A stretch of 64,000 bases of DNA, from NCBI RefSeq assembly GCF_008838325.1, contig NZ_CP042829.1, forward strand, positions 2,046,001 through 2,110,000, read 5' to 3'. This stretch comes from Tepidiforma bonchosmolovskayae. GTDB taxonomy: Bacteria; Chloroflexota; Dehalococcoidia; Tepidiformales; Tepidiformaceae. The notes beneath the pieces are model-generated. The model did not search any database. It was not told the origin of the DNA and worked only from the letters and a program-made list of their open reading frames with translations. Shown in pieces: positions 19,855-40,715 of this stretch (positions are counted from its first letter, which is position 1; every line of letters starts with the position of its first letter). Both the position numbers and the translations under genes were made by a program.

Positions 19855-20646
19855 TTACTCGGTGCCCGTACCCGAAGCCCGCTCGCTCGCCGCCCGGCGC
19901 CGCCCGGCCGCAGTCGCAACGTCGACGCACCCGAACCCCGTGCTCACCTTCGCACCCACCCCCGCAAACCGCGCGAACCGCGCCAGCACCCCAACCAGCC
20001 CGGCGTACGGTCCCTCGCTCTGCCGCGCCTCGAATTCCGCCGCGCCGACGAACCCCGGCACGAGCCCTTTCAGCTGGACTGCGACGCTCGCCAGCCGGTG
20101 CCGCCGGACCACGATCCCGTCCAGGGCCGTCCCCGCCTCGACGCCGAGGTCGACCGGCGCCCAGGTCTGCCATCGCTCCAGCAGGCCCCCGAACACCAGC
20201 TGCGGCACGGGCAGGGGCAGGTAGTTGCCCCGTGACCGGAACGTCGTCGGCGTCACGAAGGTCATCGTCGCCCGCGATTCCGGAGCCGGCGCGAGCAGTC
20301 CCGCCGCCAGGTCCGGCCACGTGCACCGCTCCACCAGCGCCTCCCCCTCCCGGCGCCACCACCGTGCGTTGAGGAGGAGCCGATCCGGCATCGCCCGGCT
20401 CAGCTCCTGCACGAACGGCGCCAGGAGTCCATACGCCGTGATCACCAGCCGCACATCCGGCTGCCGCCGCAGCGCAATCGAAAACGGCTTCTCCCCGGAC
20501 ATATCGTGCAGCGCGGTGGCGAGCCCGTCATCGCGGGTGGCGAGTTCGCGGTAGAACCATGCCTGCAGCGCCCGGCCGATGAACACCGTCTCCTCGGCCT
20601 GATCCTCCCACCTGCCGGGGATCTCGATCCGCACCAGCTCGTTCAC
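19855..20646 (-). CDS. cas6: CRISPR pre-crRNA endoribonuclease Cas6
   Basis: Cuts pre-crRNA within each repeat, leaving the 8-nt 5' handle. The GTG at 20646 overlaps the csm5 stop as GTGA, giving 263 residues; an upstream ATG at 20679 would overlap csm5 by 37 bp. The N-terminal ferredoxin-like domain has the usual LHDMSGEKPFSIA segment (His47 probably catalytic). The C-terminal glycine-rich loop is GVGAKVSTGFGCV (about 230-242). It is the last gene of the minus-strand type III-A operon and the only processing enzyme for both arrays in the window. Confidence 0.88.
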   Translation of the reverse strand: MNELVRIEIPGRWEDQAEETVFIGRALQAWFYRELATRDDGLATALHDMSGEKPFSIALRRQPDVRLVITAYGLLAPFVQELSRAMPDRLLLNARWWRREGEALVERCTWPDLAAGLLAPAPESRATMTFVTPTTFRSRGNYLPLPVPQLVFGGLLERWQTWAPVDLGVEAGTALDGIVVRRHRLASVAVQLKGLVPGFVGAAEFEARQSEGPYAGLVGVLARFARFAGVGAKVSTGFGCVDVATAAGRRRAASERASGTGTE

Positions 20647-21737
20647 CGGACCGGCTCTGCCCCCGAGACCATCACCCATCCCATCGGCAGCCAGCCGCCG
20701 GGACCGTCGACCACCCGGTGCCCGACCGGGAAGTTTGCCGGGTCCGGCGACTTCGAACGCGACAGGCGGTAGCGGTAGAGCAGCTGCCGCATCAGGTCAC
20801 GGTCGTCCCGCAGGTGCCGGCCGATCGTCTTGGCGACCCACCCCGTGCCGAAACCGACCGGGAAAACAGTCTGGCCAGCCGGCACCTTTCCTTCGAAGTT
20901 CGAGGCCACACCCGGGTCGAGTCGTCGCCAGTGCGCCAGCTCGATCTCCCGCAATGCGGCGCCCCACGTCTGGAGCACGCCCAGGAGGTTGCTCCCGAAC
21001 AGCACTTTCCGGTCATCATCCAGCTCCTTCCACGGCGACCATGCCGCCGGGGCCATCGCCAGTGTGGTAACGAACTGCGCCCCCGGGCTGACCGCCTCGA
21101 CCCACACCGGGATCGCCTGCCGGCCGCGCGACGACACCGACCGTACCTGCACCTCCGACGCAACCATCTTTAGCTCCCCGACCGGGAAGGCATCGGCCAG
21201 CCGCAGCCACCGGTTGACGTCGCGGTTCGGGAAGTCGCGCCCCTCAACGGTGTGCTCGATGTTGACATCGAACGCCCGCCGTTCCACGCCCCGGGCTGCC
21301 TGCTCCCGGGATCCTTCCCCGGCTCGGACCAGCCCCCGGACCGTGTCCCGGTTCCGCTGAACGAAGGCATCGAGCAGCGCCGAACGGAATGCGCCCTTCA
21401 GGGTCGACCCCGGCAGGTAGGCCCGTCCCATCCCGTCCCGGATGAAGGCGAGCAGGTCCTGCCCGACGGCGCGTGTGCCGTACACCGGCAGGATGGCGCG
21501 CGTTGCCTGCTCAAGCGTGCGTGGGTCAAGCGCGGCCGCAATCCGGCCGTCGGCAATGCGCGGAATCAGCTGGTCCGGCAGCAGTTCCAGCGCCCGGTCC
21601 ACGTCGACCAGGCGGACGGCCTTCCCGCCTTCGTCGCGGAAATCGTAGTCGCGGTGGTAGCGGATTCCGGACCCGATGTGCAGCGGGGTGAGGACCTGGA
21701 ACGTGAGACGGAACTGGACCAAGCGCGGCTGGCTCAC
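20643..21737 (-). CDS. csm5: Type III-A effector subunit Csm5
   Basis: A RAMP-fold protein that caps the crRNA 3' end of the Csm complex. The GTG at 21737 overlaps the csm4 stop as GTGA and gives 364 residues. The N-terminus FQVLTPLHIGSG (about residues 12-23) and the G-rich YLPGSTLKGAFRSALLDAF segment are standard Csm5/RAMP motifs. The C-terminal half carries further RAMP-like strands (FGTGWVAKTIG). Position between csm4 and cas6 and the size fit Csm5 rather than a second Csm3. Confidence 0.88.
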   Translation of the reverse strand: MSQPRLVQFRLTFQVLTPLHIGSGIRYHRDYDFRDEGGKAVRLVDVDRALELLPDQLIPRIADGRIAAALDPRTLEQATRAILPVYGTRAVGQDLLAFIRDGMGRAYLPGSTLKGAFRSALLDAFVQRNRDTVRGLVRAGEGSREQAARGVERRAFDVNIEHTVEGRDFPNRDVNRWLRLADAFPVGELKMVASEVQVRSVSSRGRQAIPVWVEAVSPGAQFVTTLAMAPAAWSPWKELDDDRKVLFGSNLLGVLQTWGAALREIELAHWRRLDPGVASNFEGKVPAGQTVFPVGFGTGWVAKTIGRHLRDDRDLMRQLLYRYRLSRSKSPDPANFPVGHRVVDGPGGWLPMGWVMVSGAEPVR

Positions 21738-22759
21738 AGGCGCACCTCGTCGAGAAAGAGTCCGAACCCGTACCGGTAGACCGGGTGCCCGCCCCCAGCT
21801 TCCGGCGTCACGTCCGCCAGCCCGCCACCCGGCCCGCTGCCGCCGAGGTACGAACCTTCGGCCAGCATCGCCACCCGCCGGGAGCGCCATCCGTTCCATG
21901 CCTCGGAGGCGATCCAGCCGCCGCGCTCGACGACGCGGTATCCCCGGGTCTCGTCCAGCTCGAATGCGCCTGCCGCCAGGTCCGCCGGTGACGGCCAGCA
22001 GAGCGAAAGGGTCGGGCCCGCCGCCGGGTTCGCGGTGACCGGTAGCTCGCACGCATGGGGGCCAAGGAGTTCGAACCGGCCCATGCCGCTCGAGCGCTCC
22101 CCGCCGATCCCGGCCTCCCCAAGCACCCGGAGGCAGATGGTGAGGTGCTCGCGCACCGCCTCGTCTGCCACCAGCGCGACTACCCCCGGAATGACCCTCG
22201 ATGCCGTTCCGTTTGAGCTCCCGGGCGGTGCGAAGTGGGTCGCCGCCGACTCGTACAACGCCGACGCGCCCGACCGGCGGTCGACCGTCACTCGCGACCT
22301 CGACTGCACCTCCCAGGGCCGGGCCAGCTCATGGCCATCTAAACCGGCGCCCAGCAACTCACCGAACCGCCTCGGCTCCCGGGAGCTTCCCTCCGCCCCG
22401 AACAGCCACCGGTACGCGGCCCTATCAATGAAGGACACCTGCCGAAGCAATTTTCGGTCGTCGAGCTGGCGGACCGGCTTGCGGACCGGGAGCGGGAAGA
22501 AAATCTCCCCCGGCCCCGAGTCGTCCCACCGGACCGGCAACATGCTCGAAATCCGCAGCTGCGGCTCCGGCGACTTCAGCCCGTCCAGCAGCCGCTGCAG
22601 GGCTTCGTTGCCGAACACCGCCTTCGTCGCCCAGCAGAGCGCTCCAAAGAGCGTGTCCGAGGCAGCCAAAGCCCGCGCGCGGTCGATGTCCTCCGCGTGC
22701 GAGCCGAGCCGCAGTGGCGCTCGCGGCTGAAGCCCGAAGACCCAGGCAGTCGCGGGCAT
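21734..22759 (-). CDS. csm4: Type III-A effector subunit Csm4
   Basis: A RAMP-fold subunit that binds Cas10 and the crRNA 5' handle. The 341-residue protein starts with a beta strand and APLRLGS loop (residues 13-19), has SDTLFGALCWA (typical Csm4), and the RAMP glycine-rich loop GIGGERSSGMGRFELL in its second half. The C-terminus is VYRYGFGLFLDEVRL. It starts 3 nt after the csm3 stop and overlaps csm5, so it is tightly coupled within the operon. Confidence 0.9.
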   Translation of the reverse strand: MPATAWVFGLQPRAPLRLGSHAEDIDRARALAASDTLFGALCWATKAVFGNEALQRLLDGLKSPEPQLRISSMLPVRWDDSGPGEIFFPLPVRKPVRQLDDRKLLRQVSFIDRAAYRWLFGAEGSSREPRRFGELLGAGLDGHELARPWEVQSRSRVTVDRRSGASALYESAATHFAPPGSSNGTASRVIPGVVALVADEAVREHLTICLRVLGEAGIGGERSSGMGRFELLGPHACELPVTANPAAGPTLSLCWPSPADLAAGAFELDETRGYRVVERGGWIASEAWNGWRSRRVAMLAEGSYLGGSGPGGGLADVTPEAGGGHPVYRYGFGLFLDEVRL

Positions 22760-22761
22760 GG

Positions 22762-23550
22762 CTACGCAGTCGCCCAGGCGACCAGGTCAGCGAGGCCCTT
22801 CCGCAGGTCGGCAACGCTCTCGTAGACCGCGGGTCCCTCCCCCGGGATCAGCTGCTGGCCGTCGACCTTCAGCCGGCGCACCGAGATGTTCTTGAACGCG
22901 ACCCTCCCCGAGCCGCGTGCGCCCGATGAGCCGAGCGCATCAGCCTCCAGCAGCTCGAGCCCATCGGCCAGCCATTGCAGCGCTGTGGCGACATTGTCGC
23001 CCTGGTAGACGAACAGGCCGATCTCGCACGGCCCGAACTCCGACCCTGCGGGGACACGCTCCATCGTGCGCGGGACCGCCGCGGAGGTAACCCGGTCGAT
23101 CGCTGCCTCCGATTTCAGCTCCGTGAACGGGAGGTCCGTCGCCGCCTCCATCAGCCGCTCCACCGAAGCCGGGGTAAGGAAGGTGTCCGAGAATCGGAGC
23201 CGCGTCTGGCAGAGCCACCGCTCCTGCGGCGCCGGCGCGCCGAACAGCTGGCAGAGCGTGCAGTTTGCGTAATCCTTTTCTCCTTTGCAGGCGTGGACGC
23301 GGACGCGGTCCCCATGAATCGGCCAGTTCTGGTCGAGCCCGTGAACCCGCTCCAGGAGCGACCGCATCTTCCCTTTTATTGATGAGCCGGGGATGTAGGG
23401 CTGCCGCGTCAGCGGGTCGCGCACCACCGGGTTGTCGACGCCCCCGATCGTCAGCGATGCCTCCTGGGCGCCGATGCGCAGTCCCGTCCGGGCAATGAGG
23501 GTCGAGCGTATGGTCAGAATTCCAGTGATAACTGCAGCGTTTTCACTCAT
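22762..23550 (-). CDS. csm3: Type III-A backbone subunit Csm3 (target RNA nuclease)
   Basis: The repeated backbone subunit that lines the crRNA and cuts bound target RNA every 6 nt. The true start is MSENAAVITG at 23550, overlapping the csm2 stop by 8 nt; upstream codons in the same frame are antisense of csm2. The product has 262 residues. Visible motifs are RTGLRIG, the YIPGSSIKGKMRSLLE segment, a zinc-type CTLCQLFG motif and TFTDTF-like RLRFSDTFLTP, where the Asp is the expected cleavage residue. The glycine-rich GSSGARGSGRVAF loop is at the C-terminal side. Confidence 0.92.
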   Translation of the reverse strand: MSENAAVITGILTIRSTLIARTGLRIGAQEASLTIGGVDNPVVRDPLTRQPYIPGSSIKGKMRSLLERVHGLDQNWPIHGDRVRVHACKGEKDYANCTLCQLFGAPAPQERWLCQTRLRFSDTFLTPASVERLMEAATDLPFTELKSEAAIDRVTSAAVPRTMERVPAGSEFGPCEIGLFVYQGDNVATALQWLADGLELLEADALGSSGARGSGRVAFKNISVRRLKVDGQQLIPGEGPAVYESVADLRKGLADLVAWATA

Positions 23551-24022
23551 CCTTTTTTTCTTCCGGAAGATATGCAACAACAGCTTCGAAGAACTCGACG
23601 AACCTCCTGAATCGCTGTTCTTCCTCATGAGGGTCATCATGTTTTAACTGGCGAATCATAGCGATAAGAGCTGACGCGATTTCGCCAAGGTTTTGCTTCT
23701 CCCTTTGTGCTCTCTTAGTCTGATAAACCAGCCTCGGCTCGAGAAGCCTCGCCCTGCGCAGTGCCCGTGCCCGGTCCTGGTCGAGCAGGAAATCGATCCG
23801 TCGCGCCTCGCCGTAGAGGCGCCGTACCGAGGTGCGCGTCGCGCCGGAGTTCTTCGCAAGCTCCTCCGCCAGGCTGATCAGGGCCTCCACCTCGCCGCGA
23901 ACAATGATTTTTTCAGCCGCTGACGCGAATCTCGACGCGTCGACCGCAGCTGCCCGGCCCTGCTGCTGCGCCCCGCGGTTGCCCTGGTAGCCTCCCTGGC
24001 CCGGCCGTTGATACTGCGTCAT
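23543..24022 (-). CDS. csm2: Type III-A small subunit Csm2
   Basis: The small helical subunit of the Csm complex. ATG 24022 is chosen because AGGAGGT is 8 nt upstream; a GTG 6 nt earlier is too close. It has 159 residues. The first 25 are Gln/Gly-rich and probably disordered (YQRPGQGGYQGNRG). The rest is all-helical with the typical Csm2 pattern LAEELAKNSGATRTSVRRLY and a C-terminal RFVEFFEAVVAYL. The 5' end overlaps the cas10 stop region. The longer disordered N-terminus is unusual for Csm2. Confidence 0.85.
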   Translation of the reverse strand: MTQYQRPGQGGYQGNRGAQQQGRAAAVDASRFASAAEKIIVRGEVEALISLAEELAKNSGATRTSVRRLYGEARRIDFLLDQDRARALRRARLLEPRLVYQTKRAQREKQNLGEIASALIAMIRQLKHDDPHEEEQRFRRFVEFFEAVVAYLPEEKKDE

Positions 24023-24024
24023 AC

Positions 24025-26421
24025 TCACGCACCTCCTGTCCGTCGTCTCTGTTCCGTGTCGCCATCGCTGGCCGTCCGCAGCTCGGCAAGCCGGGCCGCG
24101 AGCGCAACACGCCGGCCCCCCGGCTCGCCGTCAGCCGCCGGTTCAAACGCCGCCTTGCGCAGGTCCATCAGCACCTCCTCCGCGTCCCGGTGGTCCCTCG
24201 CCACCCGGTTCAGCTGGTAGTACGAGCGCCAGATCAGCGGCTCGTAGCGGCCCGGCGCAGCCTTTTCCAGCAGCTGCAGGTGCTGAAGCGCCCGCCGGGC
24301 GAGCTGCTTCTTGTCGTCCTGCCCTCGGACAAGCTCGACAAGCTTCTGCTCATACGCTCGCACCGTCTCGAATCCCGGCCACTTCAGCCACACATCCAGT
24401 GCGACAAGCGCGTTCTTCGCCTCGGCGCCGTTCGGCCGCTGACCCTTCGCCGCCCGCAGCGCCTCCTCGGCAGCCTCGATTCCGGCCTGCACCGGCCGAT
24501 GCGCATGTGCGGCCACCACGCCCGCCGAGAAGTGGAGGTCATCGTTTCCGGCGGTCCACCGCGTGAACTCCTGCCGCAGCTCGCTTGCGAAATCGAGCAC
24601 ATCGAAGAGCGGCCCTGCCAGTGCGACATCGTCGCCGCCGCTAAACACCAGGTAGATGTTCCGGAACCGCTCCGCTGCGAGCTCCGGAAGGTACGCTTCG
24701 AAAAACAGCGAAAGCGCCGTACTCACCGCCAGGAACCGTGACGGCGACGGCGGCCGTTCCGTGAAGTACTGCTGCAGGAACAGACCGAGGTCGTCGACGT
24801 CGGCCTTCATCGTTGCGATTAGCTTCCGCCCCTCGCCCTGCTCGGCAATCTCCTCGAAGTCGAGCAGCCCATCTCTGGATCGCGGCGCATACCGGCCCGT
24901 CGCCACGAGCCGCGCACACGGGAGCTTCTTCAGCCCCTCGGAATCCAGGGCGATGACCGCCCCTCGCACCACCCGCTCCGGCGGCCTGTCCGTGAGCTCC
25001 ACCCGGTGGCCGAGCTCGGCCATCACCTTTCGCCACCCGCTCAAACGTTCACCCGGCCCCGCGGGCTCCAGCAGGACAAACTTCGAATCCAGCAAAGCCC
25101 GGCCCAGGTCCTCGAGCGACGCGCAAAACTCGCACACCCTCCGCTCCACCCCGTCGTCATCCTCGACGCGCCCGCCAATCGCCTCCCGGCCGCACGTCCT
25201 GCACGCCCGGCCCATCGAGGCCACCGCCTGCGGCCGGAACAGCTCCCCGCTCCGCGCCAGCGCTTCGAACTTGCGGGACTTCCGCACCGAAAGCGCCTCG
25301 CGCAGCTGGCGGTAAACCTCGTGAAACGCCCGGAGCTCCTCACCTGAACACACCAGCCCCGCCAGGTTCAGCGAAAGCCCCGGTCCGTGCGCCGCAACCA
25401 GCACCCGGTCCAGCTCCTCCTGGAGGTCGCGGACCATCCCAACCCGTCCAGCCGGCACGGCGACCACAAACTGGCCGCCGACCACCGAGAACGCACACCA
25501 CGGCGGCACCCCGCAGCGAATGGCTACCCAGCGGGCCGCGACCAGGCTCAGCAACTGTATATAAAAGGAACGGGCCCGCAGGGCCCTGGCCGCCCTCCGG
25601 CTCCCCGTGTCATGGATGAACTCCTGGATCCCTGATGCGTCCCCGGCGACCAGGCCAATCCGTGCCCCGGCCGAATCCTCCGCCCGGCTGCCGTCTGCCG
25701 CCAGGGCCGCGGCGAACGCTCCCGCCAGGTGCAGGTGGGTCGCCAGCGGGATATCCGCCACCGCCGTCATAAACGCCGACGGCACGCCCATCGCGCCCCG
25801 GTACACCGCACCCGTGAGGTGTTCGCTCAGCGCGAGCCAGTCCCCGCCCGACAGTGCCGCCGCCGCCTCCAGCCCCGACCGCAGCCCGTCGAACACCTCC
25901 CCGAAGGCAGCGCGCGCAGAATCGGCATCGCCGGCCCGCAACTGCCCAAAGAGCAGCCGAGAGTCCAGCAGTCCCGGCCGAATGAACACCTCGTCCCGTT
26001 TCTTTGCCAGCGGGTGCAACAGCGCAGGGGCCGACCGACCTCCGTCATGTCCCACTCGGTCATACCGGTCGTCCCGCTCGCCCGCAGAGAGGTGGTCGCC
26101 CAGCACCACCCATCGGACCAGGTCGCCGAGTTCGCCAGCATTCGGCGCATGGTGCAGCGCCGCCGCATCCGCCAGGCCGCGGAACTCCGGCAGCGTCTCC
26201 TTCGCCAGCGTCCCGCTCATCGCCGCATGGGCGTACCGGTACCGCCGTTTGCAGCTGTCGCAATCGTCCCACCGCACCTGGTGCCGTTCCGGCGTCTCGC
26301 AGTCGAAACGCGAAGGCTCCGTCCCGCGCCCCGGCACCTGCGCCCATACCTTGCCCAGGTCGTGGAACAACCCGGCGCAATATGCCCGCAGGGTCTCCTC
26401 CGAAATCTCCCAGGACATCAT
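24025..26421 (-). CDS. cas10: Cas10/Csm1, large subunit of the type III-A complex
   Basis: The large subunit with HD ssDNase and Palm cyclase activities. It has 798 residues. The HD motif is at residues 20-21 (GLFHDLGKVW). A zinc module CRTCGREAIGG ... VCEFC lies around 400-430. The Palm2 active site YLVFSGGDDVALAG has GGDD at about residues 594-597, and a helical domain D4 follows. Both catalytic centres look intact, so target-dependent DNA cleavage and cyclic-oligoadenylate synthesis are predicted. It is the first gene of the operon cas10-csm2-csm3-csm4-csm5-cas6. Confidence 0.95.
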   Translation of the reverse strand: MMSWEISEETLRAYCAGLFHDLGKVWAQVPGRGTEPSRFDCETPERHQVRWDDCDSCKRRYRYAHAAMSGTLAKETLPEFRGLADAAALHHAPNAGELGDLVRWVVLGDHLSAGERDDRYDRVGHDGGRSAPALLHPLAKKRDEVFIRPGLLDSRLLFGQLRAGDADSARAAFGEVFDGLRSGLEAAAALSGGDWLALSEHLTGAVYRGAMGVPSAFMTAVADIPLATHLHLAGAFAAALAADGSRAEDSAGARIGLVAGDASGIQEFIHDTGSRRAARALRARSFYIQLLSLVAARWVAIRCGVPPWCAFSVVGGQFVVAVPAGRVGMVRDLQEELDRVLVAAHGPGLSLNLAGLVCSGEELRAFHEVYRQLREALSVRKSRKFEALARSGELFRPQAVASMGRACRTCGREAIGGRVEDDDGVERRVCEFCASLEDLGRALLDSKFVLLEPAGPGERLSGWRKVMAELGHRVELTDRPPERVVRGAVIALDSEGLKKLPCARLVATGRYAPRSRDGLLDFEEIAEQGEGRKLIATMKADVDDLGLFLQQYFTERPPSPSRFLAVSTALSLFFEAYLPELAAERFRNIYLVFSGGDDVALAGPLFDVLDFASELRQEFTRWTAGNDDLHFSAGVVAAHAHRPVQAGIEAAEEALRAAKGQRPNGAEAKNALVALDVWLKWPGFETVRAYEQKLVELVRGQDDKKQLARRALQHLQLLEKAAPGRYEPLIWRSYYQLNRVARDHRDAEEVLMDLRKAAFEPAADGEPGGRRVALAARLAELRTASDGDTEQRRRTGGA

Positions 26422-26537: not shown

Positions 26538-27779
26538 GTGGCCGTGTCGACCATCCTCCTCGCTACCATCGGCAAGCGCGACCCCTTCCACGAGGGCGAA
26601 CCAACAGGGCCCCTCCGCCTTGCGCGTGAGACGACACCCGACAGGGCGCTCCTGGTCGCCACCGAGGCCGTCCGCCCCCAGGCCGAGGCAACCGCCGCCG
26701 AACTCCAGGCCCTCGGCATCGAGGTCGCCATCGACATCCTCGACGACCTTCGCCGCGGCGTCCCCGACCTCGCAGTCAGCGTTTCCGACCTCCTCCTCGC
26801 CGGGCGCGACCTCGTCCGCCGCCACCCGGAGCTCAAAGAGGCCGAGGTCATCGCCTGCTTCACCTCCGGCACCCCCCAGATGAGCACCGCCTTCACCCTC
26901 GTCGTCCGCTCCCTGCTCCCGGACGCCCGCCACTTCCAGGCCCTGGACCCCTCGCAAACCATCCGCGAGCCCCTGCGCGAGTTCGACCCCGATATCCTGG
27001 GCCACCTCGATGCCCGCGACCGCACCCTCGAGTCGCTCGCCCGGGGCGATGCCGCCGCAGCGGCTGCCTCCGGTGTACCCCTCCTCCACCTTCCATCACA
27101 GGTTCCGCCGCCATGGGACCAGAAGGCCCTCAAAGCCGCCGTCACCATCGCCGAGGCGCTCGCCGCCGTCGAAAACTACCAGCGCCAGTGGCTCGCCCAG
27201 CTCGCCGCCAACATCCCCGCCAGGGCCGGCGGCGTCGACCTCGCCGGGCTCAAAGCCTGGCTCCAGCAGGCGGCAAACGATGACCTCGCCTGGGGCGCCG
27301 AGCTCGGCGCCTGCTTCCTCCGCCTCGACTCCCTCAACCGTCCCACCCAGGCCGTCCTCGTCGCTGCCACCGCAGCCGAAGTTCTCCTCACCGCCGGCCT
27401 CAGGCAATGCGGCATCGACCCCGACGACATCCGCGACCCGGCCCGGTTGCCGTCCGGCTTCAGCGAAGTCGACCTCATGCCCATCGACGGCGGCCGCTGG
27501 CGCATCGAAGGCGCCCAGCGCCGCGCGAAGCTGCTCGAAGCACTCTCCCCCGACTACCGCCGCGCCGTCGAAACGCACGCTGGCGAAACCCTCCGCGCCC
27601 GCCTCGCCGGCGCCCGGAACGACGCCGTCCACAAGGGCCGGCAGGTCCCCAGCGAAAGCCTCGAAGCCGCCAAAGCCTACCTCGAAATCCTCGCCGCGGC
27701 CGTCGGCGCCCCTGCGCCTTCCAGTCTCCCCACAGCCCCCTCGAGTCTCGGTGCTCTTGTCCAGCCATGGCGTTCCTGA
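26538..27779 (+). CDS. csm6: Csm6-like CARF-HEPN ribonuclease
   Basis: A predicted RNase activated by the cyclic oligoadenylate that Cas10 makes. From GTG 26538 the protein has 413 residues (a second GTG at 26544 is possible). The N-terminus is a Rossmann-like CARF domain, starting STILLATIGKRDPF, with the ligand-loop signature ACFTSGTPQMSTAF (around residue 115). The C-terminal half is helical and contains the HEPN R-x4-H motif RNDAVH (Arg360, His365). It diverges from cas10 with a 116-bp shared promoter region. The CARF/HEPN layout, size and position fit Csm6; Csx1 is the alternative. Confidence 0.8.
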   Translation: MAVSTILLATIGKRDPFHEGEPTGPLRLARETTPDRALLVATEAVRPQAEATAAELQALGIEVAIDILDDLRRGVPDLAVSVSDLLLAGRDLVRRHPELKEAEVIACFTSGTPQMSTAFTLVVRSLLPDARHFQALDPSQTIREPLREFDPDILGHLDARDRTLESLARGDAAAAAASGVPLLHLPSQVPPPWDQKALKAAVTIAEALAAVENYQRQWLAQLAANIPARAGGVDLAGLKAWLQQAANDDLAWGAELGACFLRLDSLNRPTQAVLVAATAAEVLLTAGLRQCGIDPDDIRDPARLPSGFSEVDLMPIDGGRWRIEGAQRRAKLLEALSPDYRRAVETHAGETLRARLAGARNDAVHKGRQVPSESLEAAKAYLEILAAAVGAPAPSSLPTAPSSLGALVQPWRS

Positions 27780-27948
27780 CCTGCCCCGTACGGAGGTGTG
27801 CTGCGCTGCCGAGTCTCCACTTACTGGAGCACTTGGCGTTCGATAGATGTAGCAAGTCTCTCGTGGGGCGATTACTAGGTCATACCCAAGGGGTAATCCC
27901 GTGAACCTTGAGCGCTCGGTTGCGCTCTTGCGAACTTAGGCGAATGAA
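27780..27948. other. Gap between the Csm6-like and helicase genes
   Basis: No gene. Base composition becomes AT-richer toward the helicase start, and a small inverted pair TACCC/GGGTA lies near 27885. No clear promoter boxes were found. Confidence 0.4.
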
Positions 27949-30936
27949 ATGCACAGCGCGTTATACTTGCTCGATAAGCTCATTTCATTATGGGATGACT
28001 TTGACCAGAAGCCAGATTACTATCTGCGTGATTTAATTCCTTCGATAATAGCTTATAGAGATCTGAGTAGATTTTCGTTCATAGAAAAGAAATTAATTCA
28101 ACAGTTAAAGTCTCTTATGTCTGAAGAAGAGTGGAACAATCTCGCAAATCTGATTGAGGAGCGGCGGACGGGGAGATTGCATGTCTTGCGGTCAGACAAG
28201 GAGCGCCACTTGGGGGCCAAAAGGGAGCTCCGTCCCCGGGACGAGGAGGAGCTTCGCCTGGAGGCTATATGGCAGCTCCGTCCCCGGGACGAGGAGGAGC
28301 TTCGCCGTTGGGCTGCAGAGGAGCGCCGCCTGCGGGGTGAATGGGAGCGTCGGCGCCGGGAGGAAGCAGAGGAGCGGCGCCGCCGGGATGAAGAGGAGCG
28401 GCGCCGCCGCGAGGAGGAGGAGCGACGCCGTCGCGAGAAGGAGGAGGAGCGGCGGCGTCGTGAGGAAGAGGAGCGGCGCCGCCGCGTCGCTCTCGTTCAG
28501 CGAATTCGGCATGCACTTGAAACAGATTACCTCAATGCTGACCGCGTTTTCGCCAGCGACCCCGACGCCAGCCTGCTCTCGGCTGAAGAATACCGCAGGC
28601 TCAAGGTGGACTTCGTCCGGGAGTGGAGCCGCCGGGAGCTGGGCTTGGAACTCGACGACGAGCAGGCGGCCGCGGTCGCCCTGGCCGCCGGCAATACCCT
28701 GGTCGTTGCCCGCGCCGGCAGCGGCAAGACCACTGCCCTCACGGCGCGCGCCGCATTCCTCCAGAAGCATTGTCGCATCGAGCCACGCGAGCTGCTCCTG
28801 CTTGCGTTCAACCGGGATGCGGCGAACGAAATGAAGAAACGTCTGCGCACGTTCCTCGGCGAGAATGTGCCGCATGTCATGACGTTTCACGCTCTCGCAC
28901 ACGCGATCGTCAAACCACTATCTCGTATCCTCTCTGACCAAAAGGATGAAGATCAGCTCGACCTGAGCAAATTCGTTCAGGATGTCATCGATGACCTCAT
29001 ACGCTCCGAACGGTACGCTGACAGAATTAAGCAATTCATGCTGGCATATTATAAAGAAGACTGGGATCAGATTATCAGAAACAAATTTAATCTTCCTATT
29101 GCCCATTTTTTGGCGTACAGACGATCACTAGAACGGGAGACACTCGCTGGAGAATTCGTCAAGTCATATGGCGAGAAGTTGATAGCTAATATCCTCTTCG
29201 AGCACGGAATAGAATACAAATATGAGAAGCCATTCCGATGGGGCGAAAGTGTTTACCGGCCTGATTTTACCATCTATTTCGACAATCGAAGAGGAGGACT
29301 GATTATCGAATATTTCGGCTTAAAAGGCGAACCGGACTACGATGCGCTCGCTGAAGACAAGATCCGCTACTGGGGTAGCAGACCTCAGTGGAATTTGATC
29401 TATTTTTCTTCTGAAGACATATCCCGGCACGGGCCAGATCGGTTTGCTTCTATACTGCTCGGTGCATTGGACAGATTCGGAATCAGATACCGAAAGCTTT
29501 CAGATCATGAGATATGGGCCAAAGTTAAGCACCGGGCCATCGATAGATTTACAGAGGCGGTAGTCTCCTTTGTGAACAGGGCAAGAGCGCTTGGCGTTAG
29601 TGCTGACGACCTGAGAGAAAAAGTGCTGCACCACAGCTCGATAAGCCAGTTTGAAGCAGACTTCCTGGAGGTCGCCTGCGAGATCTATGATTCATATGTT
29701 GATCGTCTGGCGTCCCAGAATCTCCTGGATTTTCCCGGGTTACTTTGGTCTGCCGTGGAGCGCATCAAAAATGGCGAGACGAGCTTTGTCAGAGATAGAG
29801 GTAGAGAGTCAGGCAATTTGAAGACGATTAAATACGTCCTTGTCGACGAGTTCCAGGATATGAGCACGGCGTTTATCGAACTGTTGTTGGCGATCAAAGG
29901 CGTCTCTGATTCGTCAGGATTCTTCGGCGTAGGTGACAACTGGCAGGCTATTAACAGGTTTGCCGGAGCTGATATCAGATACTTTGGAAACTTTGAGGAC
30001 ATATTTACTTCTCCTTATAAATTCTTGCTGTTAAACAACTATCGGTCAGATGCCAGGATTGTAGAAACGGGAAACGCGATCATGGCCCCATCAGATGAGC
30101 GAGGTGGTGTCGCTGTGTCTCGCCGAGATGGAGAAGTCATGATATTTGATATGGCAAAGTGGCGTTCTCGAGACGCCGAAAAGCAGCGCCACGGTGACGA
30201 CGAAATCACGCCGGCGGCACTGCGTCTGATATGGCACTGTCTCTCTGGCGGTCAAAGGGTGCTGGTGCTGTTCAGGGCCCGGACGATTCCTTGGTATATC
30301 CGGTGGTTGATTGGGCCCGGGGAAAAAGATGGCGTAGAGGCACTGCAGGAACATTTCCGCTCAGCCATTCCAGAGCGTCTGCGAGGAATGGTTACGGTGA
30401 ATACTGCTCATTCCGCGAAGGGTAAGGAAGAGGACGCGGTGATCATTCTGGATGCGCGGGACGGCAGGTTCCCGCTCATTCATCCCCTCTGGGTGACCGG
30501 ACGCGTGTTCGGTGATTCCCTGCTCTCGATCGGCAGCGACGAGCGGCGGTTGTTTTACGTGGCTGCGACCCGGGCGAAGCACGCCCTGTACTTCGTCACC
30601 GACTCCCGGCGGGGCAGCACGTTTCTCGCCGGTGTCCGGTCGCATGCCAACGTCGCAAGCGGAGACTGGCGGAAGCTGGCGGGGCCGCCTTGCGTCGCCA
30701 TTGAGGCAGAAGCGGGGCCAGGTCGCAAACTGTCGCGGTACGGCTTTCGACCTGTGCGTGCAGGGCGGGGCGACGGCGTGTGGCGGAAGGACGTTCCGCT
30801 CGTCGACTTCTCGTGGGATCGAGTGCTGAGCCAGCTCCGTTCGGTCGACCTCCTCGGCGTCCGGGCCATTGATGACGAAGGCAACGTGCTGCACGAGTGG
30901 TCTGCGGGGGTACGCCGCAGTGATGCCGGTGAATGA
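27949..30936 (+). CDS. SF1 (UvrD-like) helicase with charged coiled coil and inserted nuclease-like domain
   Basis: A 995-residue protein. An N-terminal helical domain (1-77) is followed by an extreme Arg/Glu coiled coil (about 78-184), then SF1A helicase motif I ARAGSGKTTA (about 254-263), an inserted domain (about 405-470) with YGEKLIANIL, YRPDFTI and IIEYFG that resembles a PD-(D/E)xK/Vsr-like nuclease as seen in some helicase-IV proteins, motif II VLVDEFQD (about 630-637), and motifs V-VI near VNTAHSAKGKEEDAVI and RLFYVAATRAKHALYF. The third nuclease residue (Lys) is not obvious. Long stretches are AT-rich, unlike the neighbours, so acquisition is likely. It sits between the Csm6-like gene and cas2, and its role there is unknown. 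Confidence 0.82.
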   Translation: MHSALYLLDKLISLWDDFDQKPDYYLRDLIPSIIAYRDLSRFSFIEKKLIQQLKSLMSEEEWNNLANLIEERRTGRLHVLRSDKERHLGAKRELRPRDEEELRLEAIWQLRPRDEEELRRWAAEERRLRGEWERRRREEAEERRRRDEEERRRREEEERRRREKEEERRRREEEERRRRVALVQRIRHALETDYLNADRVFASDPDASLLSAEEYRRLKVDFVREWSRRELGLELDDEQAAAVALAAGNTLVVARAGSGKTTALTARAAFLQKHCRIEPRELLLLAFNRDAANEMKKRLRTFLGENVPHVMTFHALAHAIVKPLSRILSDQKDEDQLDLSKFVQDVIDDLIRSERYADRIKQFMLAYYKEDWDQIIRNKFNLPIAHFLAYRRSLERETLAGEFVKSYGEKLIANILFEHGIEYKYEKPFRWGESVYRPDFTIYFDNRRGGLIIEYFGLKGEPDYDALAEDKIRYWGSRPQWNLIYFSSEDISRHGPDRFASILLGALDRFGIRYRKLSDHEIWAKVKHRAIDRFTEAVVSFVNRARALGVSADDLREKVLHHSSISQFEADFLEVACEIYDSYVDRLASQNLLDFPGLLWSAVERIKNGETSFVRDRGRESGNLKTIKYVLVDEFQDMSTAFIELLLAIKGVSDSSGFFGVGDNWQAINRFAGADIRYFGNFEDIFTSPYKFLLLNNYRSDARIVETGNAIMAPSDERGGVAVSRRDGEVMIFDMAKWRSRDAEKQRHGDDEITPAALRLIWHCLSGGQRVLVLFRARTIPWYIRWLIGPGEKDGVEALQEHFRSAIPERLRGMVTVNTAHSAKGKEEDAVIILDARDGRFPLIHPLWVTGRVFGDSLLSIGSDERRLFYVAATRAKHALYFVTDSRRGSTFLAGVRSHANVASGDWRKLAGPPCVAIEAEAGPGRKLSRYGFRPVRAGRGDGVWRKDVPLVDFSWDRVLSQLRSVDLLGVRAIDDEGNVLHEWSAGVRRSDAGE
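28226..28306 (+). repeat. Two in-frame 33-bp direct repeats inside the helicase gene
   Basis: Identical 33-bp copies at 28226-28258 and 28274-28306, 48 bp apart (16 codons), encode two copies of LRPRDEEELR. They open the charged coiled-coil stretch (to about 28490), itself built of repeated Arg/Glu codons. Unit number could vary by slippage or recombination without shifting the frame. Confidence 0.85.
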
Positions 30937-30990
30937 GCCGCCCGCGCCATCCGCACCGGCGGACCGGTCCGACCCGCATGGTGACGCCAG

Positions 30991-31275
30991 ATGGACGAGC
31001 GCTGGTACGTCGTCGCCTACGATATCCCCGATACCCGCCGGCGCGAAGCCCTCGCCGCCTGGCTCGAGGGATGGGGAGAGCGGGTCCAGCGGAGCGTCTT
31101 CGAATTTGAGCTCCGCCCTGCTGAATTCGCCCGGATGCTCGCCGGCATCCGCACCCGCATCGACCCTGCAGCCGACCAGGTTCGGGTCTACCACCTCGGC
31201 GCCCGAGGCTATCGGTCGATCGAAGTCCCGGCCGGCCCGCCGGCGCGGCCGCGGCCCAGGTGGTTCATCGTGTGA
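30991..31275 (+). CDS. cas2: CRISPR adaptation protein Cas2
   Basis: Cas2 pairs with Cas1 to integrate new spacers. The 94-residue protein begins MDERWYVVAYDIPDTRRR with the conserved Asp11, contains RVQRSVFEFEL, and has a ferredoxin-like pattern throughout. No Shine-Dalgarno is obvious before the ATG at 30991, and the gap to the helicase is 54 bp. No cas1 was found in this window on either strand, so a partner must be encoded elsewhere or adaptation is lost. It lies directly before the leader of array 2. Confidence 0.93.
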   Translation: MDERWYVVAYDIPDTRRREALAAWLEGWGERVQRSVFEFELRPAEFARMLAGIRTRIDPAADQVRVYHLGARGYRSIEVPAGPPARPRPRWFIV

Positions 31276-31380: not shown

Positions 31381-33035
31381 GTTGCAACCCTCGAATCCCC
31401 GCTAGGGGACTGAAACTTGGACCTGTGGACCTCCTCCATCAGGGGGCCTGGGGTTGCAACCCTCGAATCCCCGCTAGGGGACTGAAACTTGGGCGTAATG
31501 GTCAGCCAATTCGGGCCGGCCGGAGTTGCAACCCTCGAATCCCCGCTAGGGGACTGAAACCGGCACCATTCCGCCGGCTCCATCCAGTCCGGCAGCACCA
31601 CGTTGCAACCCTCGAATCCCCGCTAGGGGACTGAAACCGCGATTCTTCCAGCTGGATTTCAGCCAGTTTTTGTTGGTAGTTGCAACCCTCGAATCCCCGC
31701 TAGGGGACTGAAACCGTGGAATGTCGCGTGGCCACGCACGGTCACCAGCGCCGATGTGTTGCAACCCTCGAATCCCCGCTAGGGGACTGAAACTCAACCG
31801 CCGTTTTGTTCGCGATCGGGATCCTCTGAACCTTCCTGAGTTGCAACCCTCGAATCCCCGCTAGGGGACTGAAACAGCTGCAGGACGTTCAGCCACCGCG
31901 GGCCAGCGGCGTCGTTGCAACCCTCGAATCCCCGCTAGGGGACTGAAACATGCCAGGGGCACCCCTAAGGAGAACATTGAGATCCTCCCTAAGTTGCAAC
32001 CCTCGAATCCCCGCTAGGGGACTGAAACTGTACGAACAGGTCCGCGAGGCTATCGAGGACTATTACTAGTTGCAACCCTCGAATCCCTGCTAGGGGACTG
32101 AAACTGCGACAAGATCCTTTACTGGCGCAGTCACCCAGCCGAAGTTGCAACCCTCGAATCCCCGCTAGGGGACTGAAACACGTTTAGATCCTCCTTAAGG
32201 GCAATGGTGATGTTGGTCTTAAGGTTGCAACCCTCGAATCCCCGCTAGGGGACTGAAACTGGTATTCGCGGGCCAGCCCTGTGCCCAGTTCGTAGTCAAG
32301 GGGTTGCAACCCTCGAATCCCCGCTAGGGGACTCAAACATCGTGACCCACGACGGCTGCTCGCCGGGCGAGATGAGGTTGCAACCCTCGAATCCCCGCTA
32401 GGGGACTGAAACCTGTCAACATCGGTGATGGCGTCGACGACAGATGCCCAAGAGTTGCAACCCTCGAATCCCCGCTAGGGGACTGAAACTCAACCGCCGT
32501 TTTGTTCGCGATCGGGATCCTCTGAACCTTCCTGAGTTGCAACCCTCGAATCCCCGCTAGGGGACTGAAACCGAGGAGCATCTGCCAGCTCGAGGCGTCG
32601 AAGTCGACCTTCTGTTGCAACCCTCGAATCCCCGCTAGGGGACTGAAACCGAGGAGCATCTGCCAGCTCGAGGCGTCGAAGTCGACCTTCTGTTGCAACC
32701 CTCGAATCCCAACTAGGGGACTGAAACAACTTCAAGGCCGCCCTTCCCGACAAGCTCGGCGATCGAGGGAAGTTGCAACCCTCGAATCCCCGCTAGGGGA
32801 CTGAAACGCCACGATGACGTCGGCGGTGGAGACCTCCTCCAGCAGTTGCAACCCTCGAATCCCCGCTAGGGGACTGAAACTCCCGCAGGAGCGGGCCGAT
32901 GGCAGAGGGGCTGCCCTCGATGTTGCAACCATCGAATCCCCGCGAGGGGACTGAAACCCGTAGATTGGTGACAACTGCCACACTCCCGATGCGGGAGTAG
33001 TTGCAACCCTCGAATCCCCGCCAGGGGACTGAAAC
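31381..33035 (+). CRISPR. CRISPR array 2, 22 repeats of 36 nt, with duplicated spacers
   Basis: The repeat differs from array 1 at positions 10 (A to C) and 23 (G to T): it starts GTTGCAACCCTCGAATCC and ends TAGGGGACTGAAAC. Repeats begin at 31381, 31453, 31525, 31602, 31679, 31758, 31840, 31914, 31993, 32069, 32144, 32224, 32303, 32377, 32454, 32536, 32614, 32692, 32772, 32845, 32922 and 33000, with spacers of 36-46 nt. Repeat 21 (32922) is exactly the array-1 type; repeats 10, 13, 18 and 22 carry small changes. Spacers 31794-31839 and 32490-32535 are identical, as are 32572-32613 and 32650-32691. Transcription is rightward, as in array 1. Confidence 0.97.
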
Positions 33036-33750: not shown

Positions 33751-36700
33751 GTGAAACTCGAGGACCTCACACCCAACGCCGTCATCCGAGGCATTTCGCC
33801 CGGTGGTCTCGTCACGGTCATCAACGTCCAGTGGCACGGCTCCGATGCCCTCACCCTCGTGTACCGCACCGCGGACGGCAAAGTCGCCGACCGCCTCCTC
33901 TACCGCGAGGACGAACCGGACCTCGAACTCGTTGAAGCCGGCCGGCCATGGAGCTTCGATGGCGACGGCGCAACCTACCGGCTTGCAGCCGAGGCCCATC
34001 GCATCCGTCTCGCCCACCTTTTCGACCCCGTACTCGCCGTTCACACCTCGCTGGTCGATCCCTTGCCCCACCAGATCACCGCTGTCTATGAAACGATGCT
34101 GCCCCGTCAGCCGCTCAGGTTCGTTCTCGCGGACGACCCCGGCGCCGGCAAGACCATCATGGCCGGCCTCCTCATCAAGGAGTTGATCGCCCGCGGCGAC
34201 CTCCAGCGCTGCCTCATCGTCTGCCCCGGCAGCCTCGTCGAGCAGTGGCAGGACGAACTCTCGCGCCGCTTCAACCTTCCCTTCGAAATCCTCACCAACG
34301 ACAAGCTCGAAGCAGCCCGCACCGGCAACTGGTTCCTCGAAAACGACCTCGCCATCGCCCGCCTCGACAAGCTCTCCCGCAACGAAGAGGTCCAGCAGAA
34401 GCTCTTCGCCCAGGACAACCGCTACGACCTCGTGGTCTGCGATGAAGCCCACAAGCTCTCGGCAACCTACTTCGGGGGCGAGGTCCAGTACACCAAGCGC
34501 TACCGGCTCGGCCAGCGCCTCTCCGAAATCACCCGTCACTTCCTCCTGATGACGGCAACGCCCCACAACGGCCGGGAAGAGGACTTCCAGCTCTTCATGG
34601 CCCTCCTCGATGGCGACCGCTTCGAAGGCCGGTTCCGCCAGGGCGTCCACCAGGTCGATGTCTCCGACCTCATGCGCCGCATGGTCAAGGAGGACCTCCT
34701 CACCTTCGAAGGCAAACCGCTCTTCCCCGAGCGCATCGCCTACACCGTCCCCTACCAGCTATCCGACGACGAGGCCTTCCTCTACCAGCAGGTGACCGAA
34801 TACGTCCGCGGGGAGTTCAACCGTGCGGAGGCGCTGAAGAACAACAAGCGCGCCGGCACCGTCGGCTTCGCCCTCACCATCCTCCAGCGGCGCCTCGCAT
34901 CCTCGCCCGAGGCCATCTACCAGTCACTCAAGCGCCGGCGGGAGCGCCTCGAGAAGGAACTCAGGGAGCAGGAGCTCCTCGGCCGCGGGCGCGCGGTCGC
35001 CCTCAGCGTGGCCGATACACTGCTCGATGAGGACGCTATCTCAGACCTCGAGGACGCCCCCGACAACGAGGTCGCGGAGGTCGAGGAGCGGGTCCTCGAC
35101 CAGGCAACCGCGGCCCAGACCGTCGAGGAGCTGCGGCGCGAGATCGAGACGCTCCAGCGCCTCGAAGACCTGGCGGCCCGGGTCCGCCGGAGCGGGAGAG
35201 ACACCAAGTGGCGCCAGCTCTCCGAACTCCTCCAGGAGATCTTCACGGACCGTGCCTTGAGCGGCACGGCACGCGAGGAGACCGCCCCCTACGACGGGCG
35301 GCCCCTCCCGGCGCCCGTCGCCTCGCCGAACCAGAAGCTCGTCATCTTTACCGAACACCGTGACACCGTCCGGTACCTCGAGGAGCGCATCGCGACGCTC
35401 TTCGGACGCCCCGACGCGATCGCCGTCATCCACGGCAGCATGGGCCGTGACGAGCGGCGCAACGCCCAGGAGCGCTTCCTCCACGACCCCGCAGTCCGCG
35501 TCCTGCTCGCCACCGACGCCGCCGGCGAAGGCATCAACCTCCAGCGCGCTCACCTCATGGTCAACTACGACCTGCCGTGGAACCCGAACCGCATCGAGCA
35601 GCGCTTCGGGCGCATCCACCGCATCGGCCAAACCGAGGTCTGCCACCTGTGGAACCTCGTCGCCTCCGAAACCCGCGAAGGCGACGTCTACCGGCGGCTC
35701 CTCGAAAAACTCGACGAGGCCCGCAACGCCCTCGGCGGCAAGGTGTTCGATGTCCTCGGCAAGCTGCAGTTCGAAGGCCGGCCCTTGCGCGAACTCCTGA
35801 TCGAGGCCATCCGCTACGGCGACCGCCCCGAAGTCCGCGCCCGGCTCGACACCGTCATCGAGCACGCGGTCGACCCCGCCCACCTCCGTGAACTCCTCGA
35901 AGAGCGCGCCCTCGCCCACGACGCGATGGATTCGAGCCGGGTGGCCCGCATCCGCGAGGAGATGGAGCGCGCCGAGGCCCGCCGGCTCCAGCCGCACTAC
36001 GTCGAATCGTTCTTCCTCGAAGCCTTCCGCCGCCTCGGCGGCGTCGTTCGCGAGCGGGAGCCGCGCCGCTACGAGGTCACCTACGTGCCGGCCCAGGTCC
36101 GCAGCCGCGACCGCCAGATCGGCCGCGGCGAACCGGTGCTCCCGCGCTACGAACGGATCACCTTCGATAAGGAGCTCATCACCGACCCCGGCAAACCGCT
36201 CGCGGCCTTCATCTGCCCCGGCCATCCCCTTCTCGATGCCACCATCGACCTCGTGCTCGAACGCCACCGCGACCTGCTGAAGCGCGGCACCGTCCTGGTC
36301 GACGAGCGCGACCACGGCACCAGTCCGCGCGTCCTCATGGTCCTCGAACATGCCGTCCAGGACGCCAGCCTCCTGCCCTCCGGCGAGCACCGCACCATCT
36401 CCCGGCGCCTCCTCTACGTCGAAATGGACGCCGAAGGCCAGGCCCGCCACCTCCAGTACGCCCCGTACCTCGACTACCGCCCGCTCGCTGACGACGAGCC
36501 TTCCCCCGACGACCTCCTCGCCCGCCCCGAGTGCGCCTGGATCGGCGCCCACATCGAGGCCGTCGCCCGGAACCACGCCATCGCGACCGTCGTGCCCGAG
36601 CACGTTCGGGAGGTTCGCGACCGCCGCATCGAACTCGTCGAAAAGACCCGCGCCGCGGTCCACGACCGGCTGACGAAGGAGATCGCCTACTGGGACTACC

Positions 36701-37332
36701 GCGCCGAGCAGCTTGCCCTCGACGAGCAGGCCGGCAAACCGGCGGCGCGGATGAACTCCGTGGAGGCCCGCCGGCGGGCCGAAGATCTGCGCCTCCGGCT
36801 CCGGCGCCGCATCGAGGAGCTCGACCGCGAGGCCAGGGTCTCAGCCCTGCCCCCGGTCGTTCTCGGCGGCCTCGTCGTCGTGCCCATCGGCCTCCTCGCC
36901 GCCATGACCGGCCGCCCCTACCCCCTGCCCGCTCCCGCTGTCGATACCGGGGCCGCTGCCGCCCTCGGACGCCGGCTCGTCATGGACGTCGAACGGAAGC
37001 TCGGGTACGACCCCGTCGACCGCGAGTCCGACAAACTCAGGTACGACATCGAAAGCCGGGTCGTCTCCGGCCCGGAGCGCGGCCGCCTCCGCCTCATCGA
37101 GGTCAAGGCCCGCGTCGCCGGCGCCGATACGGTTACCGTCACCCGCAACGAAATCCTCACCAGCCTCAACAAGCCCGACGACTACATCCTCGCCCTCGTC
37201 GAACTCCACGCCGATGGCGGCCATCGCGTACGCTACCTGCGCCGCCCCTTCCGGCGCGAGCCCGACTTCGGCGTCACCAGCGTGAACTACGACTTCGCCG
37301 AACTCCTCGCCCGCGCCGAGGAACCGCGGTAG
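33751..37332 (+). CDS. SNF2-family helicase with DUF3883-like C-terminus
   Basis: A 1193-residue SF2/SNF2 DNA translocase. GTG 33751 follows AAGGAG by about 8 nt. Motif I is DDPGAGKTIMAGLL (about 128-141), motif II VVCDEAHKLSA (DEAH about 231-234), motif III LLMTATPHNG, and motifs V-VI ATDAAGEGINLQRAH and RIEQRFGRIHRIGQ (around 590-630). A long charged middle and a C-terminal DUF3883-like domain follow (about 1085-1185: RLRLIEVKARVAGADTV and TRNEILTSLNKPDDY), a fold with nuclease-like EVK residues. It leads a cassette with a DNA methyltransferase and a DUF499 ATPase, typical of defence islands. It is not DrmD for certain, since other DISARM genes are absent. Confidence 0.88.
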   Translation: MKLEDLTPNAVIRGISPGGLVTVINVQWHGSDALTLVYRTADGKVADRLLYREDEPDLELVEAGRPWSFDGDGATYRLAAEAHRIRLAHLFDPVLAVHTSLVDPLPHQITAVYETMLPRQPLRFVLADDPGAGKTIMAGLLIKELIARGDLQRCLIVCPGSLVEQWQDELSRRFNLPFEILTNDKLEAARTGNWFLENDLAIARLDKLSRNEEVQQKLFAQDNRYDLVVCDEAHKLSATYFGGEVQYTKRYRLGQRLSEITRHFLLMTATPHNGREEDFQLFMALLDGDRFEGRFRQGVHQVDVSDLMRRMVKEDLLTFEGKPLFPERIAYTVPYQLSDDEAFLYQQVTEYVRGEFNRAEALKNNKRAGTVGFALTILQRRLASSPEAIYQSLKRRRERLEKELREQELLGRGRAVALSVADTLLDEDAISDLEDAPDNEVAEVEERVLDQATAAQTVEELRREIETLQRLEDLAARVRRSGRDTKWRQLSELLQEIFTDRALSGTAREETAPYDGRPLPAPVASPNQKLVIFTEHRDTVRYLEERIATLFGRPDAIAVIHGSMGRDERRNAQERFLHDPAVRVLLATDAAGEGINLQRAHLMVNYDLPWNPNRIEQRFGRIHRIGQTEVCHLWNLVASETREGDVYRRLLEKLDEARNALGGKVFDVLGKLQFEGRPLRELLIEAIRYGDRPEVRARLDTVIEHAVDPAHLRELLEERALAHDAMDSSRVARIREEMERAEARRLQPHYVESFFLEAFRRLGGVVREREPRRYEVTYVPAQVRSRDRQIGRGEPVLPRYERITFDKELITDPGKPLAAFICPGHPLLDATIDLVLERHRDLLKRGTVLVDERDHGTSPRVLMVLEHAVQDASLLPSGEHRTISRRLLYVEMDAEGQARHLQYAPYLDYRPLADDEPSPDDLLARPECAWIGAHIEAVARNHAIATVVPEHVREVRDRRIELVEKTRAAVHDRLTKEIAYWDYRAEQLALDEQAGKPAARMNSVEARRRAEDLRLRLRRRIEELDREARVSALPPVVLGGLVVVPIGLLAAMTGRPYPLPAPAVDTGAAAALGRRLVMDVERKLGYDPVDRESDKLRYDIESRVVSGPERGRLRLIEVKARVAGADTVTVTRNEILTSLNKPDDYILALVELHADGGHRVRYLRRPFRREPDFGVTSVNYDFAELLARAEEPR

Positions 37333-37349
37333 GCAGGAGAAACGCAGCC

Positions 37350-37601
37350 ATGTCGCAAATCGACATCACCGTGCCCGATGCCCCCTTCGCACCGCTCCGA
37401 AAGGCGCCGCACGAGCTCGCCGCTCGGATGCAGCACGCGGCAGCCATCCACTGGTACCAGCAGGGCCTCCTGTCGATGGAGCGGGCTGCCGAGGCCGCCG
37501 GAAGGGGCCGGGCAGAGTTCCTGGCCGAACTCGCACGTCGTCGCGTCGACGTCTTCTCGCTCGACGAGCGCGACCTCGCCCGGGAGCTCCAGGGTGCCTG
37601 A
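37350..37601 (+). CDS. UPF0175-family antitoxin-like protein
   Basis: An 83-residue protein with the UPF0175 pattern: helix with AAIHWYQQGLLSMERAAEAA (about 32-51), RAEFLAELARRRVDVF and a C-terminal tail. Such proteins are usually paired with a downstream PIN-like DUF3368 toxin. Here the gene overlaps a collapsed DUF3368 remnant, so the antitoxin is effectively an orphan. It lies 18 bp after the SNF2 helicase stop and upstream of the methyltransferase, inside the defence cassette. Confidence 0.7.
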   Translation: MSQIDITVPDAPFAPLRKAPHELAARMQHAAAIHWYQQGLLSMERAAEAAGRGRAEFLAELARRRVDVFSLDERDLARELQGA

Positions 37602-37810
37602 GGTGCTCGTCATCGACGCCTCGCCCGTTCGTGCGCGCTGGCGCTCCGGTATCCCGGTCATGGAAACGGTTGGAATCGTGGCCCTGGCCCGGCGGCCCGG
37701 GGGTGATCCCGGACGCACGCCCCGTGCTGCTCACACTGCGGGCTGCCAGCATCTGGCTTTCCGACGAAGTCATCGCAATGGCGGTGCGCATTGCCGGCCT
37801 GGAAACGTGA
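37594..37810 (+). pseudogene. Collapsed DUF3368 (PIN-like) toxin remnant
   Basis: The first frame, from GTG 37594, reads VLVIDASPV, the standard N-terminus of DUF3368 PIN-like proteins. After roughly 30 codons the family similarity jumps to the +1 frame, where [13 protein letters not shown] and [20 protein letters not shown] end at TGA 37808-37810, the family's normal C-terminus. The family is about 150-170 residues, whereas only about 72 codons lie between the ends, so most of the core is deleted and the frame is broken. The toxin is almost certainly inactive. Confidence 0.7.
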
Positions 37811-37820
37811 GGAGCAAACC

Positions 37821-40700
<2,880 letters not shown>

Positions 40701-40715
40701 TCCAGGAGGTCCACC

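Follow-up and report, generated by a model that had tools for sequence, protein, structure and literature searches.

What is a large helicase gene doing inside a type III-A CRISPR locus, between a csm6-like gene and cas2 and on the same strand as both? The window analysed here is a 64,000-nucleotide stretch of the Tepidiforma bonchosmolovskayae genome. It carries a cas6-csm5-csm4-csm3-csm2-cas10 operon on the minus strand (19855-26421), which is assigned to type III-A by the presence of Cas10/Csm1, Csm2 to Csm5 and Cas6. The remaining parts of the locus are on the plus strand: CRISPR array 1 (17700-19109), a Csm6/Csx1-like CARF gene (26538-27779), an intact cas2 (30991-31275) and, directly 3' of cas2, array 2 (31381-33035), whose repeat is related to that of array 1. 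The helicase gene (27949-30936, plus strand) occupies the slot downstream of the CARF gene.

The gene is an open frame of 995 residues that starts with ATG and contains no internal stops. The original prediction described it as an SF1 helicase with an Arg/Glu coiled coil and an internal nuclease-like module, placed it between the Csm6-like gene and cas2 of a type III-A locus, and called its composition foreign; each of these points has held up. Pfam places UvrD-helicase over residues 235-685 (7.8e-40) and UvrD_C over residues 813-884 (6.1e-15), both above the cut-off, and the model of the whole protein superimposes on UvrD-DNA complexes with Z 32.7 and an rmsd of 2.9 over 424 residues. The motor is split. 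Its first part (residues 232-383; 28642-29097, plus strand) contains the Walker A motif AGSGKT (residues 256-261) and TFHAL, and its second part (residues 527-905; 29527-30663, plus strand) contains motif II, VDEFQD (632-637), followed by GDNWQAI, SAKGKE and ATRA. Walker A, a DExQ motif II, motif VI and both the N and C cores of UvrD are thus present, as in the UvrD/Rep (SF1A) helicases, and K260, D633, E634 and R875 are invariant in all 39 proteins of a full-length alignment. Upstream of the motor, an N-terminal helical region (residues 1-96; 27949-28236, plus strand) is modelled with low confidence (pLDDT 34-72) and visibly resembles a homologue from the same phylum (L215, genome G458). It is followed by an Arg/Glu-rich coiled-coil helix (residues about 97-192; 28237-28524, plus strand), of which residues 97 to about 190 are encoded by DNA repeats of 24/27 bp and residues 115-192 are modelled as a single long helix.

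Between the two motor parts lies the insert (residues 384-526; 29098-29526, plus strand), which includes the YGEKLIANIL, YRPDFTI and IIEYFG segments that had been likened to a nuclease. Modelled with 55 aligned homologues, it reached a mean pLDDT of 94.9 and showed an alpha-beta-beta-beta-beta-alpha-beta order (helix 24-35, strands 46-48, 51-53, 57-60 and 67-73, helix 79-93, strand 98-104 and helix 105-125 of the insert model), which contains the alpha-beta-beta-beta-alpha-beta core of PD-(D/E)XK enzymes. Its closest structural match was the catalytic domain of the homing endonuclease I-Bth0305I (Z 10.2, rmsd 2.5 over 95 residues); two mitoribosomal proteins ranked next, and further nucleases followed, namely NGO0050 (Z 8.7), Bax1 (Z 8.0) and TnsA (Z 7.3), with Can2 and McrBC lower. 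The Foldseek E-values for the insert are weak when taken alone (best 7.7e-3). The acidic and lysine residues expected of such a nuclease are conserved: the putative active-site residues E409, D439, E454 and K471 do not vary in any of the 39 aligned homologues. K471 is placed in the helix that follows the last acidic strand, and has thus migrated from its usual position in E-x-K. Searching the insert and both termini against Pfam gave no match at E-values up to 10. By its predicted fold and its conservation, then, the insert is a PD-(D/E)XK nuclease domain, and sequence, conservation and predicted fold together show the protein to be an SF1A, UvrD/HelD-like helicase carrying this domain between motifs Ia and II, its activities being predicted ones. 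One or other activity may have been lost in spite of the conserved residues; for the UvrD-type helicase GajB of the Gabija system, nucleotide hydrolysis has been reported without helicase activity (PMC10568477).

The slot that this gene fills has an identifiable former occupant. A genome of the same genus, G004, has the same gene order and about 80% identity across the cas genes (80% for Cas10, 91% for Cas2), with a 318-residue cas1 between csm6 and cas2. Cas1 is the adaptation integrase, and its gene is the one through which new CRISPR memories are captured. The alignment of the window to G004 ends at 27789, ten bases beyond the csm6 stop, and restarts at 30939, two bases past the helicase stop, from where a single alignment continues into cas2. 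The segment between these points (27790-30938) has no homology to the csm6-cas1-cas2 region of the relatives and stands for most of cas1. What remains of cas1 is its 3' end (30939-30984, plus strand; 45 of 46 nucleotides identical to G004), in which positions 30940-30984 encode ARAIRTGGPVRPAW and a stop codon, an exact copy of the C-terminal 14 residues of the G004 Cas1. The slot is likewise occupied by cas1 in G018, from another genus, and in G001, from the same genus, it contains a frameshifted cas1 sequence. Because cas1 fills the slot in these three genomes, the breakpoints are exact and a 14-codon remnant is left, comparison with the relatives shows that the helicase gene has physically taken the place of nearly all of cas1 in this III-A locus, a replacement known from this one genome. 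The cas1 gene may have decayed before the insertion or may have been deleted by it. No target-site duplications, common flanking repeats or inverted repeats were found at the junctions.

No other convincing cas1 match occurs within the window. The sole Cas1 of the genome is a Cas4-Cas1 fusion (about 31% identical) at 1019479, about 1 Mb from the window locus, which has its own cas2 and adjoins arrays of a different repeat family. This genome has only the Cas4-Cas1 type, and G004 carries both the III-A cas1 and a frame of Cas4-Cas1 size (573 residues). This second CRISPR locus (L230; G000:C1:1005000-1024900), with its long arrays, looks like type I-G.

The replacing gene is foreign to its surroundings. 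Its GC3 runs between 0.48 and 0.74, compared with 0.82-0.89 in cas10, csm6, cas2, csm3 and hmaA, and GC in 1-kb steps drops to 0.47 at 29001-30000; furthermore, the gene is absent from the five other species or genomes of the genus that were sampled. On these two grounds, comparison with relatives shows it to have been acquired horizontally. Its closest relatives, at 44.5% identity, come from two genomes of the same phylum, G458 and G424. The Anabaena sp. 90 plasmid pANA03 encodes one at 41% identity, a Hydrogenophilales MAG one at 39% and an Acidimicrobiales MAG one at 38%; those of the viral contig L054 and of a Tenderia plasmid follow, at 36% and 32%.

The neighbourhoods of these homologues bear directly on function. 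The survey covered 171 homologue loci, 2.5 Mb in all, some of them without the insert; 80 reading frames, that of the window included, match the insert profile, and in the viral-contig scan an alignment query found 80 loci compared with one for a single-protein query. In the INPHARED phages there were weak partial matches only, mostly in unannotated faecal records. Across the 171 loci there was no match to the Cas10, Csm3, Csm6, Cas2 or Cas6 of the window, to the G004 Cas1 or to the Cas4-Cas1 fusion, in a tblastn search that recovered all Cas queries in three positive-control loci and that would miss very divergent Cas types; no CRISPR arrays were found in them either. In 146 genes that neighbour homologues with the insert, PADLOC gave matches to its models for DISARM, BREX and MADS and for type IIG and type IV enzymes, with no Cas model among the 25 matches listed, and Pfam added resolvases, integrases, GmrSD and ordinary or housekeeping genes. 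As this sample is modest and lacks a matched control, we do not claim an enrichment in defence genes. One association is explicit: in the Hydrogenophilales MAG (L134), the homologue comes after brxA, brxB, brxC and the gene of a pglX-type methylase, and an AAA_11 helicase gene comes next, which puts it inside a BREX operon. Tyrosine integrases adjoin the homologues of Anabaena, the Acidimicrobiales MAG (L135) and the viral contig L054, and the Anabaena homologue (L049) and that of L050 are plasmid-borne. On a Rhizobium rhizogenes plasmid (L051:4276-8229), the homologue adjoins a reverse-transcriptase gene.

Taken together, we consider it probable, though well short of certain, that the horizontally acquired SF1A helicase-nuclease which replaced cas1 acts alone, unwinding and cutting the DNA of phages, plasmids or their replication intermediates, and that CRISPR immunity does not include it as a conserved component. 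In functional terms, a mobile and probably anti-MGE helicase-nuclease displaced cas1. The motor would load on single-stranded or forked DNA of the invader or of its replication intermediate, translocate with ATP and hand its substrate on to the nuclease domain within it. Self-association, or the assembly of subunits, would probably be the task of the long coiled coil.

The location on plasmids and phages would also suit a role in replication or recombination. On that account, the protein is an element-borne helicase-nuclease serving plasmids and phages and is passive cargo here, with no part in defence. Anabaena, Tenderia, rhizobia and haloarchaea do have plasmid-borne homologues, IMG/VR contigs carry others, and integrases are among the neighbours of homologues. 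However, one close homologue lies within the BREX operon, DISARM, BREX, MADS and type IV enzymes neighbour the family, and genes directed against plasmids and phages travel on such elements too. We therefore regard a purely element-serving role as a minority possibility, one that deserves to be kept in view behind autonomous action against mobile DNA.

An accessory role in CRISPR immunity, for adaptation or for DNA targeting, had been put forward in the original prediction. The protein would make spacer substrates or degrade targeted DNA for the III-A system, and would have been kept beside cas2 for that reason. The arrangement invites such a reading, as csm6, the helicase gene and cas2 share a strand, the helicase gene ends 54 bp upstream of cas2 and there is no convincing terminator between them (a scan of the locus for promoters and terminators performed near chance level). 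But recurrent linkage to cas genes is what the neighbourhood survey failed to show: none of the 171 homologue loci had a match to the window Cas proteins or an array, and so the gene is no conserved accessory of CRISPR systems. The gene is also missing from the other sampled members of the genus, and the slot that it occupies is that of the lost adaptation integrase. A CRISPR accessory function is thus improbable. The other suggestion made at the outset, a gene of independent function parked within the island, agrees better with these results, although the gene was not parked beside the adaptation genes; it took the place of one of them.

It is also conceivable that the nuclease aids insertion of its own gene into DNA-integrase genes, here cas1, so that the gene would be homing-like and selfish. 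The best structural match, I-Bth0305I, is a homing endonuclease, and on the viral contig (L054:5924-11178) the homologue is flanked by an intact tyrosine integrase gene and by a 3' remnant 77.5% identical to it, so that an integrase remnant stands 3' of the homologue just as the cas1 remnant does in the window. These are, however, two cases, with neither a target-site duplication nor common flanking repeats; the other homologues examined are not within split genes as far as seen, and the common fold is generic. We consider such homing very improbable. Still harder to credit is a functional replacement of cas1, in which the helicase-nuclease would work with the retained Cas2, for example to produce DNA fragments destined for the array or with Cas2 put to another use, as the DNA motor of a Cas1-less adaptation module. 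Finally, a housekeeping DNA-repair enzyme moved by rearrangement is scarcely believable, since DNA helicase IV is the best NCBIfam model (NF008276) but its score of 189 bits falls far short of the 543 required by that model, the HelD protein of E. coli lacks the insert, and the gene is sporadic and foreign in the genus.

Comparison with known systems places the protein more precisely. The HelD-like/UvrD-type SF1 helicases that carry the insert (Anabaena sp. 90 pANA03 WP_015083734, L215, L229 and L134) share its order of coiled coil or variable N-terminus, motor 1, nuclease insert and motor 2, are 32-45% identical to it and have the invariant nuclease residues in common; unlike the window protein, all the examined members of this group are encoded outside cas loci. 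E. coli DNA helicase IV (HelD, b0962) has a similar motor sequence but a different N-terminus and a length of 684 residues. AddAB, AdnAB and RecBCD likewise unite an SF1A motor and a PD-(D/E)XK nuclease in one machine (AddAB Z 25.5). In those machines the nuclease is a C-terminal RecB-family domain, whereas the window protein has it in its interior, with I-Bth0305I as the closest match. GajB models match the window protein down to 9.1e-39, although no GajA/OLD partner is adjacent, the neighbours being the Csm6-like gene and cas2, and we do not assign it to Gabija. Nor does it belong with the reverse-transcriptase-associated helicases (DRT; PADLOC RTasHel), as it has no reverse-transcriptase neighbour; one rhizobial homologue does. 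The C-terminal part of a phage-defence candidate, PADLOC PDC-S68, matches the insert (residues 391-471, 1e-13), but the match is limited to the nuclease domain and PDC-S68 is otherwise a different protein. Our literature searches found no paper on this insert or on this cas1 replacement, which is not proof that none exists. The replacement is the new point; the protein itself is a little-studied variant among the SF1 helicase-nucleases. It also points to a widespread family of helicases, apparently not yet characterised, whose internal nuclease has no Pfam match and whose genes are spread over plasmids, phages and defence islands.

If the helicase-nuclease acts against mobile DNA, then a probably immune mobile gene has taken over the site of the gene with which another immune system forms its memory, and has left cas2, the effector and the arrays in place. 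As the III-A effector and cas2 remain, interference can persist. The insertion took away the locus's own integrase, however, and autonomous spacer capture should be lost; with that integrase gone, the arrays would be either frozen or reliant on the distant Cas4-Cas1/Cas2 pair in trans. In Flavobacterium columnare, type VI-B arrays gain spacers through a type II-C Cas1 although the repeats differ (PMC8092290), and by analogy adaptation of the III-A arrays by Cas4-Cas1 is possible. The window locus is in effect a natural cas1 knock-out, for which G004, closely related and intact, serves as the control, and it makes testable whether a III-A array can survive on the Cas1 of another CRISPR type whose repeat differs.

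Several minor observations concern the loci themselves. No spacers common to the III-A arrays of this genome and the arrays of its relatives were found. Within array 2 (31758-32691), two spacers are duplicated (31794 equals 32490, and 32572 equals 32650), which are signs of recombination within the array. The III-A locus of G001 (L047) has many frameshifts, in cas10, csm3, csm4, csm5, cas6 and cas1, and is either decaying or poorly sequenced. Directly after array 2, at 33751-44045, the window contains a complete Hma defence system (HmaA, HmaB and HmaC; PADLOC more than 1100 bits), and hmaA is found in G004 too, at 91% identity.
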